DNA from: a virus
Direction: 5' to 3' (one strand)
Length of the DNA: 35,506 nucleotides
Virus record (IMG/VR): IMGVR_UViG_3300036985_004569
Span: 1 to 35,506 of that record
A model generated the notes under the pieces. That model ran no database searches. It saw only the letters and a list, made by a program, of their open reading frames with translations, and was not told where the DNA came from. How positions within the stretch are numbered: position 1 is the stretch's first letter; every line of letters starts with the position of its first letter. This document shows, one piece after another, positions 9,553 through 22,631 of this stretch. The position numbers and the translations under genes were made by a program.

Positions 9553-9584
9553 GTCAGGGTCTCCTTTTTGTTGCTGACCAGTAC

Positions 9585-9613
9585 CTTTTAAAGCACCCGC
9601 TTGATGGTGTCAA
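9585..9613 (-). promoter_or_regulatory. Early promoter/operator cassette P3
   Basis: Minus strand: TTGACA (9608-9613), spacer of 17 with AAGC-GGGT-GCTT, TAAAAG (9585-9590), then a GTCAGCAAC leader. The TGA stop of the VRR-NUC gene lies inside the -35 hexamer (9610-9612). The loop bases are the complement of those in P1 and P5, which keeps the arms. Confidence 0.8.
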
Positions 9614-9891
9614 CCCCTTATTTTTGCAACGATTTCGTCCAGCTCCGCCTCGGAGTGCGCCACGAACACCGGAATGCCGTCGGCGCGCATGCGCTCAATC
9701 TCGCGTGTTTGCAGCTTGCTCAGCCGATCGCCCGCCGCCTTGATCTCGATGAAGGCGAAGCGCGGCCCGTCCCACCACACGAAGCAGTCGGGGCACCCGC
9801 TGCGCCCCTCCCAGCGCACCTTCCGGTACTGGCCGCCACTCTTCTGCACGACGTGCTTCAGGTGGTCCTGTAGTTTACCTGCGGGTGTCAT
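9610..9891 (-). CDS. VRR-NUC domain nuclease
   Basis: Stand-alone PD-(D/E)XK nuclease of the VRR-NUC type, 93 residues, usual for phage members. Visible active-site positions: GCPD (Asp35), FIEIK (Glu49, Lys51) and a conserved Gln61 in LSKLQTREI. VRR-NUC proteins cut structured DNA such as flaps or junctions; in phages they sit beside a PolA-type polymerase and an SF2 helicase. The start at 9891 meets the end of the polymerase gene (TGATGA-type overlap). Expected to need Mg2+ and to act in replication or recombination. Confidence 0.9.
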   Translation of the reverse strand: MTPAGKLQDHLKHVVQKSGGQYRKVRWEGRSGCPDCFVWWDGPRFAFIEIKAAGDRLSKLQTREIERMRADGIPVFVAHSEAELDEIVAKIRG

Positions 9892-11831
9892 CAGTCGAGC
9901 TTAGCGTATCGGTACATCTCGTGCCCGGCGGCGGCCAGAGGCAGGCCCGTGGACCAGCTCTCCCCGCGCGACATGATGGCGGAGAGGCCCGCCACCGTGT
10001 ACGCGGCCTCGTCCGGCGTCTCGCAGATCAGCTCGTCGTGTACGCGCACGCATACGGGGTAGCCCTGCTCCTCGGCGCGCAGCATGCCGCCCATGAAGAT
10101 GTCGCGGGCGATGGCCTGCACGATGTTCTCCACGAGCTTCCCGTAGTACGTGTCCAAGCGCGTCCACTGCCTCGTGTACTGGTTGGTGCCGTCGTACCAG
10201 ATCTGGCCCTCCTCGAGGGTCGCGTTGGGGTAGCTCAGGTAGCGGCCGGAGGGCAGCTTGATGCGCAGCCAGTCGCCCTGCATGTCGAGGTACAGGCCGC
10301 GCACTTCGCTCACCGTGGTGGGCTCGCGCAGCACTGCCTTGGCCGCGCGCTCCACGTCGTACCAGAGGGCCACCGTGGCCGGGTGCTGCGCGCGCCACGC
10401 GTGCACGAGGAGCTGGATGGCGTCGTCGCTCATGGCGTCGAAGACGGCCCCGCCCATCTTCCGGTAGGCGCCCACGCCCCCGCCATACCCGCCCGCCAGC
10501 TCGGGCACCTTGCCCTGCAGGTGGCGCTCAACCTTGGTGATGTCCGCCGGATCCTTGGAGAGGATGTGCCCGGCCGTGATCTTGTACAGGTCGTGCCCCA
10601 CGCCCCGATCGAAGGCGTAGAAGGCGTCGATCTTCCACTGCTCGCCGGCGAGCCACGCCAGCACGCGGCCCTCAATGTTGGACAGGTCGGCCACGACCAG
10701 CTTGCTGCCGGGCTCCGCCACGAGGCAGCCGCGCACGGCAGACGAGCACAGCTCGCTGACGTTCTCGAAGAGCAAGTCCTCGCAGTCCAGCTTCATGGCC
10801 TCCACGCCCTGCTCGATCTGCGCGAGTGGCATGGTCGGGCGCGGCAGGTTCTGCGGCTGGAAGATGCGACCGGCGTCGCGCCCCGTGCGCGATGCGCCGC
10901 AGAACTGGATGGTGCCGCGCAGCCGATCGTCGGCCGACGCAGAGTTCAGGATCACGCTGTACTTGGCGGGGCTCGTCGCCGAGGCCTGCTGGCGGATCTC
11001 CAGCAGCTCGCGCACCTTGGGGCCCAAGGTGCCGCCCAGCAGGGACGTCACGGTGTTCCTCGTCATGTCCTCGGGCGCGAAGTCGTGGTGGACAGCGAGG
11101 TAGTCCATCAGGCGCTGGCGCTGCGTCAGGCTGCCGACTACTCCGCCCGTGAGCTGATGGGTACGAGCGGCCAGAGATCGTGAAGTTCTTTGAAAAGCTC
11201 GAAGAGCTGATTGCGCGAGCTGGCGGTCAACGGCGACACCACGGTCATTAATTCTTTGGTCGCAGAGCCATAAGTTCCGCTCACGTGAATTACAATTCCA
11301 GCGTGGAAGCCGGCGGTATAGCTCTCGCATAGCGTCCACATCGAGGCGGGCGTATTCGATGAAGGCCTGCCAGTCATCTGGGTGCGTCTCCCTTGTTGAC
11401 CGGCGCAACTTGACGTTCTTCGCGCGCGGCTTGCAGAACAACTGTATCAGCTTTTTGCCCGCCTTGTCTTTAGCCTTGTCGGAGGGCACGCCGAGCACGT
11501 CGCAGAGCATGCCCAGCGAGGCCGGCAGGCTGTGCTGCAGGGCGATCACCATGGTGTCCGTAATCTTATCCACAGGTATATTTACGCCGCAATGGCGCAG
11601 CACAGTCCGGTCGAAGTGGCTGTTCTGGATGACGATCTCGTCGGCCGCGTCGATCATGCACTGCAGGCGCTCGCGCCAATCGGGCTGGTCCTGCGTCTCC
11701 CACACCGCGACCGGGTCGTCGTCCACGGCCACGGCCACGAGCATCACCTCCACCGCCTCGGCGTAGGCGTGCGTGCCGTGCGCGATGGGCACGGCAGAGA
11801 AAGTCTCGAGGTCGAGGAAGAGCGTGGTCAT
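9891..11831 (-). CDS. Family A DNA polymerase with 3'-5' exonuclease
   Basis: Phage PolA-type replicative polymerase, 646 residues, no 5'-nuclease domain. Exonuclease motifs: LDLE (Asp7, Glu9), NSHFD (Asn70, Asp74) and YARLD (Tyr160, Asp164), so proofreading should be active. Polymerase motif A is ADLSNIEGR (Asp382, Glu387, Arg389), motif B includes Lys441 and Tyr449-Gly450, and motif C is VRVHDE (His598-Asp599-Glu600). This is the short polymerase that accompanies DUF2815 and DUF2800 proteins in many phages. ATG at 11831 overlaps the HTH gene stop as TAATG. It is a core replication gene, co-transcribed with its neighbours. Confidence 0.96.
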   Translation of the reverse strand: MTTLFLDLETFSAVPIAHGTHAYAEAVEVMLVAVAVDDDPVAVWETQDQPDWRERLQCMIDAADEIVIQNSHFDRTVLRHCGVNIPVDKITDTMVIALQHSLPASLGMLCDVLGVPSDKAKDKAGKKLIQLFCKPRAKNVKLRRSTRETHPDDWQAFIEYARLDVDAMRELYRRLPRWNCNSRERNLWLCDQRINDRGVAVDRQLAQSALRAFQRTSRSLAARTHQLTGGVVGSLTQRQRLMDYLAVHHDFAPEDMTRNTVTSLLGGTLGPKVRELLEIRQQASATSPAKYSVILNSASADDRLRGTIQFCGASRTGRDAGRIFQPQNLPRPTMPLAQIEQGVEAMKLDCEDLLFENVSELCSSAVRGCLVAEPGSKLVVADLSNIEGRVLAWLAGEQWKIDAFYAFDRGVGHDLYKITAGHILSKDPADITKVERHLQGKVPELAGGYGGGVGAYRKMGGAVFDAMSDDAIQLLVHAWRAQHPATVALWYDVERAAKAVLREPTTVSEVRGLYLDMQGDWLRIKLPSGRYLSYPNATLEEGQIWYDGTNQYTRQWTRLDTYYGKLVENIVQAIARDIFMGGMLRAEEQGYPVCVRVHDELICETPDEAAYTVAGLSAIMSRGESWSTGLPLAAAGHEMYRYAKLD

Positions 11832-15774: not shown

Positions 15775-17805
15775 TCATGTGCAAAAAATTACACGTCCGT
15801 GTTCGATGGCGATCGGGCCGTCCTTGCGTTTTGACAGCGTCTGCACGGCGCGCCGCATGCTGAACAGGCGCTGGTCCCGCTTGCCCGCGTCGGGCGGCGG
15901 CAGAAGGTCCGCGCAGCGCGCCACGAAGACCGCCTCGGAGACGTCGCTCAGGGCCGCGTAGTCCGTCTCGATCACCTCCAGCACGTGACGCTCGTTGGCG
16001 CCGTAGCGCACGACGCCCCGGCTGGGCTTGTCCTGCACCTTGGCCGCGGGCAGGTCCGCCTCGATGGCCACGCAGCTTGTGATCAGATCCCCGTAGGCGT
16101 CAACGCCCAGCTCGACCACCTCCAGCCGGAAGCCGTAGCGCACGCCGTCCTCGCCGTCCTTCATTTTCTCGATGTGGATCTCGCGCTGCCCGTCCTCGTG
16201 CTTCAGCACCTCGATCTGGGCACTCGCCGCCCCCTTGATGCCGGACCAGCCGCGCGAGCCCTTGCTGGGATCCTTGCCGGCGTGGTGCACGACCATGGGG
16301 GTGGCGCCCGCGGCCTCGCGGATCAGGCGCACGTTGGCCAGCGCGCGTCCCATGTCCTCCGCGCCGTTCTCGTTGGCGCCGGGCGTCACCTGCGCGAGCG
16401 TGTCGATCACCACCAGATCGACGTCTCCGAGTGCCCGGATGGACGCCAGCACCTCCGCGATGTCGTCCTCGTGGAGGAAGTTCGGGGCGGCCGTGATGAC
16501 GTGCAGCGGCACTTTGCTCAAATCCACGTCGTTAAACTTGGCGTAAGCGTTGGACCGCTTGCCGAGGCCGCCAGCGCCCTCCGCGGCGATGATGACCACA
16601 ATGCCCTGCCGGGAGCGGTTGCCGCGCCACGGGATGCCCTGAGCCACGGCGAAGGCCATGTCCAGCGCCACGAAGGTCTTGCCGCTGCCGGAGGCGCCGA
16701 AGAGGACGACCAGATCGTCGTCGGGCAGCACGCCCTTGATGAGCCAGTCGCCCGGCGGCTGCAACGCCAGCTCGTGGATCGGCGTGGTGGCGAAGCGGCC
16801 GCGCTCTTCCCGCGCCTCGGCGATGATCACCTCCACCTTGGCCATCACGCTCTCTGCGCTGGCCCGCGTGTGAACGTAGCCGCCCTTCTTGGCCATGTTG
16901 ATGACGCTGGCCATGGTGACCTGCCTCTGGCGCTGCCCGGCGCGCCGATCGAAGCTGTCCCACTGCACGCGCAGCCCCTCGGTGCCGGGGTAGGTGGCGC
17001 CGTCGATCGACCAGTCGTCCCACAGGTCGAAGCCGGTCTCGTCACCCTCACACTCGTGGTGCAGCGCGAGCCCCACCCGGATCCACTCATCACGCCCCAC
17101 GTCCGCGCTGACGTGGCTGAGGATGCGCTGCATGGCGCCCGGCGTCAGGCCCAGACGGGGCTCGAGGCCCGCAAACGGGTCGTCGGAGATGCTGCTTGGT
17201 GCTCGGCTGGCGAAGCGCGTGTCGCACAGGCGCTGGATGATGGCGTTGACGGTCGGGTCGTCCGCCACCGTGTCCTCCTCGCCGAGCATCTCGCAGATGG
17301 GCAGGATGTTGCCCGTGAAGGTGACGAAGCCGCTGTTGCTGAACGTCTCGAAGCCGTAGGTGTCGGGCGTCGTGGACGCCTTGTTGTTGCCGAAGCTGCC
17401 CACGCTGAAGGCGCGCACGCCCACGCCGGATGGGCTGTACTCGGTGTACGTGCGGGCAGCGATCTGGGCGATCTCGTCGGGCACGTTCCCGTCCGCGTCA
17501 ACGCAGTGATCGAAGTCGCAGGCGGTGATGCCGAACTCGGGCATGAGGGCCAGCCCCACGCCGCTCATGCCCCGCTTGGCGGCCGCGTCGCGGGCGGCCG
17601 CGAACTTGACCATCTTGGCCCGATCGTTCGGACTGCCATTCGCGCCGTAGCGCTTCCCGCCGTCCGCGTAGTATGGCACCTTGCGGGGCTTCGGCTCGCC
17701 CTCGTGCTGCTCGTATCGCCAGAGCAGCCAGCCCTGCAGGTCGCGCAGGACGGTGGGCGCGGCGATGCTGCGGTGCTGCGGCGAGATTAAGTGTACGTTG
17801 TCCAC
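15775..17805 (-). CDS. PrimPol-PriCT-AAA (RepA-like) primase/helicase
   Basis: Replication initiator/primase-helicase, 676 residues from GTG 17805 (GAGGGGA six bases upstream). A GTG at 17829 would add eight residues but has no RBS. Domain order: PrimPol-type primase/polymerase (catalytic ACDFDH, Asp97 and Asp99; SPSGVGVRAF strand), PriCT_2-like region about 222-292 (AMQRILSHV, EWIRVGLALHHE), then a RecA/RepA-like ATPase with Walker A GASGSGKT (370-377) and Walker B DLVVIDT (463-469). The C-terminal ~80 residues look winged-helix-like. It should unwind and prime the phage DNA for the PolA polymerase. It follows the YdaS-like gene. Confidence 0.9.
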   Translation of the reverse strand: MDNVHLISPQHRSIAAPTVLRDLQGWLLWRYEQHEGEPKPRKVPYYADGGKRYGANGSPNDRAKMVKFAAARDAAAKRGMSGVGLALMPEFGITACDFDHCVDADGNVPDEIAQIAARTYTEYSPSGVGVRAFSVGSFGNNKASTTPDTYGFETFSNSGFVTFTGNILPICEMLGEEDTVADDPTVNAIIQRLCDTRFASRAPSSISDDPFAGLEPRLGLTPGAMQRILSHVSADVGRDEWIRVGLALHHECEGDETGFDLWDDWSIDGATYPGTEGLRVQWDSFDRRAGQRQRQVTMASVINMAKKGGYVHTRASAESVMAKVEVIIAEAREERGRFATTPIHELALQPPGDWLIKGVLPDDDLVVLFGASGSGKTFVALDMAFAVAQGIPWRGNRSRQGIVVIIAAEGAGGLGKRSNAYAKFNDVDLSKVPLHVITAAPNFLHEDDIAEVLASIRALGDVDLVVIDTLAQVTPGANENGAEDMGRALANVRLIREAAGATPMVVHHAGKDPSKGSRGWSGIKGAASAQIEVLKHEDGQREIHIEKMKDGEDGVRYGFRLEVVELGVDAYGDLITSCVAIEADLPAAKVQDKPSRGVVRYGANERHVLEVIETDYAALSDVSEAVFVARCADLLPPPDAGKRDQRLFSMRRAVQTLSKRKDGPIAIEHGRVIFCT

Positions 17806-17841
17806 AGGTGTCCCCTCTACATTGTCCACGATCGCGAGCGC

Positions 17842-18069
17842 TTATGATGCGTCTGCGAGGGGGATCCCCACTAGGGCAACCAGATCCGGGCGCACAAGGT
17901 GCGCGCGGTCCACGCCGTAGAGGCGCTCGATCTCCATGGCGCGTGCGGGTGGCACCCAGCCCCGCCGCACCCACTGCTGCACCGCCTGCACGGTGATCGG
18001 CGGGTCAAGGCTGAGCGCAAAGTCGCGGCGTGTGCCGGCCCTGCTGATGGCTGTGTCTATCCCGGTCAC
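17842..18069 (-). CDS. YdaS/Cro-like HTH regulator
   Basis: 75 residues, GTG start overlapping the upstream stop (GTGA). The sequence runs ISRAGTRRDFALSLDPPI, TVQAVQQWVRRGWVPPARAM and EIERLYGVDRAHLRPDL-like end (actual AHLVRPDL); the helix-turn-helix with Gln-Ala-Val-Gln-Gln-Trp recognition helix and VPPxRAMEIE following is typical of YdaS/Cro-type proteins. Such proteins bind short operators as dimers. It is the best candidate in this window for binding AAGC-N4-GCTT at the early promoters or the repeats at 21.77-22.08 kb; that link is inference. Confidence 0.85.
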   Translation of the reverse strand: MTGIDTAISRAGTRRDFALSLDPPITVQAVQQWVRRGWVPPARAMEIERLYGVDRAHLVRPDLVALVGIPLADAS

Positions 18070-21001: not shown

Positions 21002-21436
21002 TCAGAAGTTGTAGTCGTGGAAGGCGCGGCGGCCGGCGTAGGCGTTGCCCCCGCGCTCGAAGGTCTTGGTGCCCGAGCGCTTCCACTGGCGGCGCTCTTG
21101 GCCCTCCTCGTCGAGCCACTTGCGGAGCGAGATCTTGACCTCGTGGCCCTCCGGGTTGGCCGCGTAGCTGTAGCGCTGGTCCGCCTGATTGTCGCAGTGG
21201 GCGAGGAAGCCGCCTGCAGTGAAGCGCAACTCATCGCGGTTCAGCAGCTCGGCAGTGTCGGCGCGCAGCGTGATGGTGGTGGGCGTCTTCCTGACGATGG
21301 TGTAGGCGTCCACGTCGCTCCAGACGGAGACGGAGACGCCCTCGCCGACGTTCAGGGCAGTGATGGCGTCCGCTGCCGCGTTGATCTCGGCAGTGCGCTC
21401 GGCGATCCAAGGGCGGGGTTTCGTGGTGATGGTCAT
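21002..21436 (-). CDS. Conserved phage protein of unknown function, 144 aa
   Basis: ATG at 21436 with CGGAGC upstream. The sequence VSVWSDVDAYTIVRKTPTTI, then TLRADTAELLNRDELRF, TAGGFLAHCDNQADQRY and a C-terminal RRAFHDYNF form a pattern I know from many phage and plasmid hypothetical proteins; function unknown. The core is beta-rich with a basic surface. Second gene of the early strand. Confidence 0.75.
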   Translation of the reverse strand: MTITTKPRPWIAERTAEINAAADAITALNVGEGVSVSVWSDVDAYTIVRKTPTTITLRADTAELLNRDELRFTAGGFLAHCDNQADQRYSYAANPEGHEVKISLRKWLDEEGQERRQWKRSGTKTFERGGNAYAGRRAFHDYNF

Positions 21437-21465
21437 GTCGTTTGCTCCGTGGTTAATAAGAGTGA

Positions 21466-21672
21466 TTACTTTTTGAAGCCCTTGAAGTTCAGCTTCTTGG
21501 CCCGCAGCGCAGCTTGAAACTCAACTTGAGCCAGACGGCGGGCGGCGATCAATTCGACTGGCGAAAGCTCGGCCTTGTTCACGGTGTTGATTGAGTGAGT
21601 GCGAAGTTGCGCGAGGTTCGCGGCGGCTTGCACTTGCAGGGCTTTGTGATCGCGTTTGTCGGGGTTGGTCAT
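21466..21672 (-). CDS. Small early protein, 68 aa, first gene of the early strand
   Basis: ATG at 21672 (MTNPDKRDHKALQVQAAANL) with ACGGAGAC upstream, first after the control region. A longer frame runs upstream to 21870 but would cover the repeats and has no RBS. Predicted helical and basic (ELIAARRLAQVEFQAALRAK), ending LNFKGFKK. No family recognised; being promoter-proximal it is probably expressed earliest. Confidence 0.7.
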   Translation of the reverse strand: MTNPDKRDHKALQVQAAANLAQLRTHSINTVNKAELSPVELIAARRLAQVEFQAALRAKKLNFKGFKK

Positions 21673-21698
21673 GTCGTCGTCTCCGTGGCTGATGACCC

Positions 21699-21727
21699 CG
21701 TGTAGCGTGTGATGTTTTGCCTGTAAA
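21699..21727 (-). promoter_or_regulatory. Variant early promoter P6 (no AAGC operator)
   Basis: Minus strand: TTTACA (21722-21727), a 17-base spacer, TACACG (21699-21704), then GGGGTCATCAGCCACGGAGAC leader, aligned with the same position in P1-P5. The AAGC-N4-GCTT arms are absent, so this first promoter may escape the control acting on the others. Confidence 0.5.
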
Positions 21728-21758
21728 GCCCTACATGTAAAAAAGTGCAAGGCAATTT

Positions 21759-22075
21759 GGGGGGGGGTGTCACACGTGTCACGTGCCGATTTTGGTGTCA
21801 CGTGTGACACTATATGCAAAAAATGCCGGGTTGTTATGTAGTTGAAATTGCACGCTTTTTGGGGTGTCACATGTCACGTTTGACTACGTGTGACATGGTG
21901 TGGCAGCCTGTCTGTCACAGCACACCACGGTCTATATCTCCGATATAGCCGGTGTAGTGTGACGGCGTGACGTGACGTGACACGTTACATTTCCGCCATT
22001 TCCAACCTCGTGCTGTGCACCCCAGCCGAAACGTGACACCCAACACCGCGCTGCACGTTTCGCCACGTGACACCT
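21759..22075. repeat. GTGACAC-type iterated repeats in the divergent control region
   Basis: The 500 bases between the early and late units hold no gene. TGTCAC or its complement GTGACA recurs about 10-12 times: at 21768, 21777, 21796, 21804, 21865, 21872, 21890, 21913, then GTGAC copies near 21967-21982, 22033 and 22067. GTGTCACGTGTGACAC (21795-21810) is an inverted pair. The copies left of 21920 are mainly TGTCAC, those right of it mainly GTGACAC. A G9 run (21759-21767) flanks the array. Candidate origin iterons or operator array. Confidence 0.75.
21932..21948. promoter_or_regulatory. 17-bp palindrome, candidate operator
   Basis: CTATATCTCCGATATAG has perfect 7-bp arms (CTATATC/GATATAG) around TCC. 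It is AT-rich within a GC-rich genome and lies near the switch in orientation of the GTGACAC repeats. Possible regulator binding site or melting element. Confidence 0.6.
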
Positions 22076-22096
22076 CGCGTTGCCATCGCGGCCCCC

Positions 22097-22125
22097 TTGC
22101 CGAAGTTGCCGGCCGGTGTTATCTG
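22097..22125 (+). promoter_or_regulatory. Candidate late promoter for the terminase operon
   Basis: TTGCCG (22097-22102), 17-base spacer, TATCTG (22120-22125); transcription would start near 22132 and give a ~40-base leader to the terminase ATG. It lies 22 bases after the last GTGACACC repeat (22066-22074). Moderate match only. Confidence 0.4.
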
Positions 22126-22172
22126 TGCGTCTCACTGGTAGTCCTGCCAAGTCAGCGGAGCATGCAGACCTG

Positions 22173-22631
22173 ATGCCTTACCCGGCCAAGAAGAACCCCA
22201 AACTACTTGAGGAAGTGCTGCGCCGTATCGCCGGCGGCGAGACGCTGGCGGCGCTTGGCCGCGAGCTGAAGTTTCACCCGCAGAGCTGGGCGGACTGGAT
22301 GCGCGCGCACGAAGGCTTGGCCGTCGCGTACCAGCGCGCGCGCGACGTGGGCGCCGACGCGCTGGCCGAGGAGGCACTCGCGCTGATCGACCAAGAGCCC
22401 GCCCGCGTGGACGGCCGCGTCGATCCCGGTCACGTGCAGTGGCGCCGCGCGCAGGTGGACACCCGCCTGAAGCTGCTGGCCTGCTGGAACCCCAAGAAGT
22501 ACGGCCAGAAGCAGACCGTGGACGTGGGCAACAAGGACGGCGAGGCCTTGAAGGTCGAGCACGACGTGGGTGACGTCGCCGTGGCGCTGATGGCCAGCCT
22601 GCGCAGCGCGAAGCGCATCGGGGCCCAGTGA
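22173..22631 (+). CDS. terS: Terminase small subunit
   Basis: 152 residues from ATG 22173 (MPYPAKKNPKLLEEVLRRIA). N-terminal helix-turn-helix: LRRIAGGETLAALGREL followed by FHPQSWADWMRAHEGLAVA, as in DNA-recognition domains of small terminases. Next is a helical oligomerisation region (QRARDVGADALAEEALALID) with the WNPKKYGQK motif common to this family. It recognises the packaging site and assembles with the large subunit. The start lacks a close SD (GGAG lies ~17 bases upstream). Its TGA overlaps the GTG start of the large subunit. Confidence 0.88.
   Translation: MPYPAKKNPKLLEEVLRRIAGGETLAALGRELKFHPQSWADWMRAHEGLAVAYQRARDVGADALAEEALALIDQEPARVDGRVDPGHVQWRRAQVDTRLKLLACWNPKKYGQKQTVDVGNKDGEALKVEHDVGDVAVALMASLRSAKRIGAQ

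Follow-up and report, generated by a model that had tools for sequence, protein, structure and literature searches.

Replication of this phage probably starts in the 500-bp divergent non-coding gap at positions 21673–22172, which would be an iteron-type origin recognised by the winged helix at the C-terminus of the phage primase-helicase (PrimPol). The gap belongs to a 35.5-kb IMG/VR virus contig, here called the window (the whole stretch of 35,506 nucleotides that was analysed), for which no near DNA match was found among 50,697 phage records. The gap is non-coding, because the small early gene that bounds it on the left has its ATG at 21672 (minus strand) and terS, which bounds it on the right, has its ATG at 22173. 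The original prediction of an origin at which the PrimPol/RepA-like protein acts is well supported by a covariation in the family, described below, with the C-terminal winged helix as the part that would make the contact. Elsewhere in the window, between 5500 and 9300, long open reading frames are present on both strands; the plus-strand translations are rich in His, Arg and Pro and look antisense, so the real genes of that region are probably on the minus strand.

Eleven of the 19 exact GTGACA/TGTCAC sites of the window lie in the gap, clustered between 21768 and 22072 (305 bp of non-coding DNA), in agreement with the about ten to twelve copies that had been noticed. When the 19 sites were placed at random in 20,000 trials, no more than five fell within 310 bp in any of them. 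In 2,000 gaps simulated with a Markov model the GTGACA count did not exceed five either, and over all hexamers the maximum was 4.5 on average and 12 at the highest. The cluster of what had been described as GTGACAC repeats is real, but the common unit is better written as TGTGACAC, with ACGTGTGACACG as its consensus and a frequent form. The left iteron group (21767–21877) is on the minus strand, with GTGTCACA at 21767 and 21864, GTGTCACG at 21776 and 21795 and TGTCAC at 21872. A single plus-strand iteron inside this group (21803–21810) completes the sequence GTGTCACGTGTGACAC (21795–21810), a perfect palindrome built from two iteron units, at the place where an inverted pair had been noticed. 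Two more iterons, TGTGACAT at 21889 (plus strand) and CTGTCACA at 21912 (minus strand), occupy 21889–21919, just left of a central hairpin, while the right iteron group (21976–22073, plus strand) contains CGTGACAC at 21976, 22032 and 22066. With respect to the hairpin, there are six TGTCAC and two GTGACA on the left and no TGTCAC and three GTGACA on the right, so that the polarity that had been read, mostly TGTCAC on the left and GTGACAC on the right, holds. The run of nine guanines pointed out beside the array is located at 21759–21767.

The central hairpin (21932–21948, CTATATC-TCC-GATATAG) had been taken for a perfect AT-rich palindrome; an inverted repeat is present there, but it consists of a 7-bp stem with a 3-nt loop. 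Its DNA fold has a z-score of −2.9. Of 54 arrays, 54% have a stem of at least 7 bp, a share that drops to 19% in control windows, and the hairpin of one relative with an array of the GTGACA group (L083) shows one compensatory pair change. A covariation count over 16 hairpins gave 98% pairing and 43 double changes, which is not independent evidence, because these hairpins were selected for their complementarity. The hairpin is absent from the terminator-like sites, and a reading as an intrinsic terminator is disfavoured by the presence of hairpins with the same loop in both orientations among the arrays. As an RNA element it was also discarded, as Rfam contains no match at gathering score for 21400–22500. 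The A-rich element ACATGTAAAAAAGTGCAA (21733–21750) is a candidate unwinding element, with a second copy, ATATGCAAAAAAT, at 21812–21824, and A-rich elements of a similar kind are present in other arrays. The GC skew, of which a minimum had been anticipated at the gap, reaches its cumulative minimum near 18–19 kb, about 3 kb away; it follows the gene strand in this contig, is not decisive as evidence on an origin and lends none to the gap.

PrimPol, the putative initiator, is encoded at 15775–17829 (minus strand), 4 kb from the array, so that in the window the origin would not lie next to the initiator gene. The protein contains an archaeo-eukaryotic-type (AEP) primase domain, a PriCT-2 domain, an AAA_25 motor and a C-terminal winged helix, and thereby unites primase, helicase and, by prediction, winged helix in one chain. 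The amino-terminal AEP domain matches PDB entries 7ola, which we take to be SaPI5 PriRep1, and 6a9w. The AAA_25 motor matches RSF1010 RepA (1g8y/1nlf) and has the RecA fold of the RSF1010 RepA-type helicase family; it is not an SF3 helicase domain as in the SaPI Rep, P4 alpha and pRN1 families. The C-terminal domain (residues 600–684, about 85 residues, encoded at 15778–16032, minus strand) is predicted to be a winged helix (wHTH) with a pLDDT of 91, formed by a helix (domain residues 12–24), a strand, a second helix (33–42), the recognition helix (55–68, residues 654–667 of the protein) and a two-stranded wing. No Pfam family matched this domain and a PDB sequence search with it gave no significant match; in structure comparisons it resembles winged helices in general, ORC subunits among them, with Z up to 8.2. 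The motif KRD-X1-R-X2-X3 lies where the recognition helix begins; its X1 is Q653 in the window (codon 15871–15873), the residue just ahead of the helix, and its X2 and X3 are L655 and F656.

Searches with TerS and TerL led to 140 loci, to which PrimPol searches added 80 more. Where the sequence of a relative extends far enough, the gap before terS in many cases contains an array of a word of six to eight bases in both orientations, and the word differs from phage to phage: TGTGACAC, TGCAACAC, TGCAGCAT, TGCACCAT, TACAGCG or TGAGAGG, as well as TGCAAC(AC), TGCAGC(AT), TGCACC(AT), GTGACA, CTCTCA, TACAGC and others. Of the conservation in relatives on which the original prediction was to stand or fall, the position of the array is kept, but the repeat sequence switches. 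The closest arrays (L083, L047 and L085) retain the palindrome and the adjacent A-rich element (with a TA..TGCAAAA..TGC flank), and a core of about 80 bp around the hairpin is in register with the window; the array of L061 gave no alignment with this group. The isolated relatives are the Caulobacter phages RW, KcrB, RLK and GB2A (PrimPol 50%, TerL 59%). In RW, the sole isolate looked at, there is no clear array in the divergent gap. In the same phage, a pentapeptide-repeat gene (L377:6700-7350) contains some 20 copies of ACCTCA within 400 bp, which were set aside as a coding repeat.

Judged from the sequences compared, the word follows the C-terminal winged helix of PrimPol, and not TerS or the YdaS/Cro-like protein. 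Residue X1 pairs with one base of the word, isoleucine with G (TGCAGC), threonine with A (TGCAAC) and leucine with C (TGCACC), and is glutamine in the window. Phages with a second winged-helix open reading frame in the scanned locus were excluded; of the 23 non-redundant ones that remain and have a clear array, 22 obey this rule, a fit reached by none of 100,000 shuffles, in a comparison uncorrected for relatedness. Among 678 PrimPol columns, X1 ranks first, with a normalised mutual information of 0.80, and the next column reaches 0.53. In an unbiased scan of 57 families of open reading frames (7,416 columns), one family alone scores higher than X1, a small and unbalanced one (15 genomes, labelled twelve G, two A and one C). 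A tree of the remainder of PrimPol has six changes of the iteron base and five of X1; each of the five X1 changes coincides with a base change, and the sixth base change accompanies a change from Q to H at position 656. The same change at X3 is found in the exception to the rule, L219, in which X1 is threonine and the array is TGCAGC. A sister pair with PrimPol proteins that are 88% identical, L123 and L039, has threonine with TGCAAC in the former and isoleucine with TGCAGC in the latter, while in L043 a TACAGC array, with the second base changed from G to A, is paired with a change from R to H at X2. The covariation, by which word and winged helix can be seen as a natural lock and key, points to the C-terminal winged helix instead of the amino-terminal primase domain, which had been suggested for binding assays. 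The match between winged-helix specificity and iterons is a property of the family; the window's own pair, Q653 with TGTGACAC, is known from a single genome. Glutamine at X1 is also found in the PrimPol of L329, which comes from the same metagenome sample as a contig with a GTGACA array (L047); a reading of the two as one phage was dropped, as they have no 40-mers in common.

The residue code is, as far as the alignments go, restricted to the main clade. It does not hold with one residue for all relatives: in the more divergent L319 (RDI) and L324 (RDL) both arrays are TGCAAC, and L219 and L225 need position 656 as well. In L177, L244 and the L010-L012 group, the array is TGCACC or a mixture of TGCACC and TGCAAC, while PrimPol, where known, predicts otherwise. 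A stand-alone winged-helix open reading frame of the type RDTRRQR adjoins the array in all of these, and it, rather than PrimPol, is the protein that the arrays of L177 and L244 fit; two proteins may therefore share or contest the site. A similar stand-alone protein is present in L092, yet its TGCAAC array fits its PrimPol. Small open reading frames beside the array on the TerS strand were observed in L066, L054, L010-L012, L034, L037, L079, L092, L114, L177, L195 and L244; they end in a winged helix akin to the C-terminal one of PrimPol, in some cases with the same specificity residue. These are candidate regulators of the origin or competitors for it.

The relatives that come from bacterial genome contigs encode either a RepA-like helicase on its own or a primase-helicase, and their C-termini are very different. 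Eighteen loci of these distant elements have some repeat cluster; in 12 of them, against 0.8 expected, the start of the best one falls between −50 and +28 bp relative to the stop codon of the helicase gene. The words are different again (TGCTTC, TCCCAT, TTGGGG, TGTGCG, GGACAG, TGCATC and others), and the loci inspected have a similar plan, in which a hairpin separates iterons of one polarity from those of the other and the left end is often A-rich. This linkage ties the arrays to the helicase C-terminus independently of the residue code. A related arrangement is seen in G006 (L051/L147, L051:9300-9900), whose PrimPol is of the Q type and 79% identical: on the TerS strand, a second, different gene for a RepA-like helicase ends exactly at the CCGGACAT array by terS, and the whole helicase-array unit has apparently been replaced. 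In a Synergistaceae MAG contig (L275:1900-4074 and 9576-11750), a TGCAGC array comes after each of two helicase open reading frames whose C-termini are identical; this may be a duplication of one element or an artefact of assembly. Strong clusters of other words, away from the helicase stop codons that were checked, are present in L316:4601-5000 (CGGCTA, 20 copies) and L324:6851-7250 (AGGTCG, 14 copies).

If the gap were instead a divergent operator, with replication starting elsewhere, the iterons would be bound by the YdaS/Cro-like protein or by a stand-alone wHTH regulator acting as an early/late switch. The array does lie between divergent units, a sigma-70-like early promoter (minus strand, 21837–21809) abuts the palindrome, and the small winged-helix protein encoded between array and terS in some relatives can fit the array better than PrimPol. 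We nevertheless consider an operator unlikely. The −10 box of the promoter is not conserved in aligned relatives, the window has no stand-alone wHTH, the arrays of the distant elements are downstream of helicase genes, and the tracked residue is in a primase-helicase, a protein without a known regulator role. The YdaS/Cro-like protein, which adjoins PrimPol (17842–18069, minus strand) and had been put forward for a divergent operator, does not covary with the word: its best column reaches 0.39 against 0.80 for X1. Its helix is nearly identical in L123 (TGCAAC) and L039 (TGCAGC), and it was rejected as the array binder.

A packaging site (pac or cos) recognised by the terminase small subunit is much less probable still. 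The array adjoins terS, the first late gene to its right (22173–22631, plus strand, Sf6 type), and a near-invariant block of about 35 nt (22133–22168, CACTGGTAGTCCTGCCA...AGCGGAGCATGCAGA) is located between the two. TerS does not track the motif, however: proteins 81–88% identical to that of the window are paired with entirely different words (L002 and L003). L003, with a TerS 81% identical, has the array TGCAACAC, and L002, with a TerL 97% identical, yet has the array CCTCTCAT. In L010-L020, one TerS type occurs with two array types. The word, differing despite similar terminase subunits and within one TerS type, belongs to something in the early module and not to packaging. A packaging role would suit the invariant block rather than the array. 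This block is preceded by TTGCCG-16-TTATCT (region 22097–22168), is common to relatives with wholly different arrays and is probably the late promoter with its leader, or else a signal for packaging. That the array has no function, as a repeat that expanded neutrally or as sequence of low complexity, is scarcely credible, for although the word varies among phages and the G9 run and A-tracts are close by, the sites are in both orientations with irregular spacing, are in register in L083, L047, L085 and the window, and covary with one protein position.

For the preferred reading, an iteron origin served by PrimPol, we propose a mechanism modelled on SaPI Rep and pRN1. PrimPol monomers would bind the iterons, in both orientations, via the winged helix, and hexamers would assemble around the central hairpin, which may act as a primer start or a cruciform. 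The hexameric motor would be loaded and the duplex opened at the A-rich DNA, after which the fused primase would lay the first primer. Binding of PrimPol to the iterons may also autoregulate the early promoters, a possible side effect on the flanking transcription units.

Origins whose iterons are recognised by the C-terminal domain of a helicase are already known. The alpha protein of satellite phage P4 has a TOPRIM-type primase and an SF3 helicase in one chain with a C-terminal winged helix, whose targets at ori and crr are short repeats of either orientation; it resembles the window's PrimPol as a single primase-helicase with a C-terminal winged helix, while the iteron sequences are unrelated. 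At oriV of RSF1010, RepA, RepB' and RepC are separate proteins, RepC and not the helicase binds the iterons, and primase start hairpins are located near them. A hexameric RepA helicase fold and hairpins near iterons are the points of likeness to RSF1010, the fold alone being what the window's protein shares with it; among the proteins scanned, none was named as a RepC. The C-terminal domain of SaPI Rep, from the Staphylococcus pathogenicity islands, recognises iterons directly downstream of its gene (PMC7581432, citing Ubeda 2007). The AEP primase domain and the iteron-recognising C-terminal domain are alike in the two systems, whereas the window's array is 4 kb off, at a divergent junction, and its motor is of the RecA-fold AAA_25/RSF1010-RepA type. 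The wHTH-bearing replication protein of pRN1, compared with P4 in PMC4234260, needs a stem-loop downstream of its gene, poorly conserved in sequence but kept in structure (PMC4234260). Its ORF904 is likewise a PrimPol with a helicase and a C-terminal winged helix, but with an SF3 helicase, no iteron array and a 100-nt stem-loop against the 7-bp hairpin of the window. Our literature search for a described origin of the RepA-like helicase type returned analogues alone. New here are the RecA-fold motor, the location of the array at a divergent junction and the repeated switching of specificity, and in some relatives also the second winged-helix protein.

In PLE and ICP1, origin and initiator modules are exchanged under attack: in the PLE RepA/ICP1 Odn system the origin iterons and the initiator DNA-binding domain have been swapped between close relatives, and a second protein, a nuclease, can share the origin specificity (PMC8263062). 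PLE RepA is of another initiator family than PrimPol; the likeness is in the exchange of iterons and initiator, and possibly in a second protein that shares the origin specificity, although no nuclease part was noticed in the stand-alone winged-helix open reading frames of these phages. Rather tentatively, we suggest a natural code in which the winged helix picks the iteron base through one or two residues at its start, with array and protein switching together repeatedly, probably under pressure from rivals that target or steal origins, and in which the stand-alone wHTH proteins would be competitors for the origin, in copy-number control or in interference with co-infecting relatives.

With the gap and PrimPol, a large group of uncultivated phages gains a located candidate origin and a named putative initiator, together with a prediction of specificity, down to a single residue of the PrimPol domain, that is open to tests in vitro. 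Repeated switches of origin-initiator pairs among close relatives are rare natural material, with which one can ask how a DNA-binding domain and its many sites change together. Possible drivers are incompatibility on superinfection or, as known for PLE/ICP1, parasites that target origins. The linkage between helicase stop codon and array may also serve as a quick origin finder for integrated elements with RepA-like helicases.
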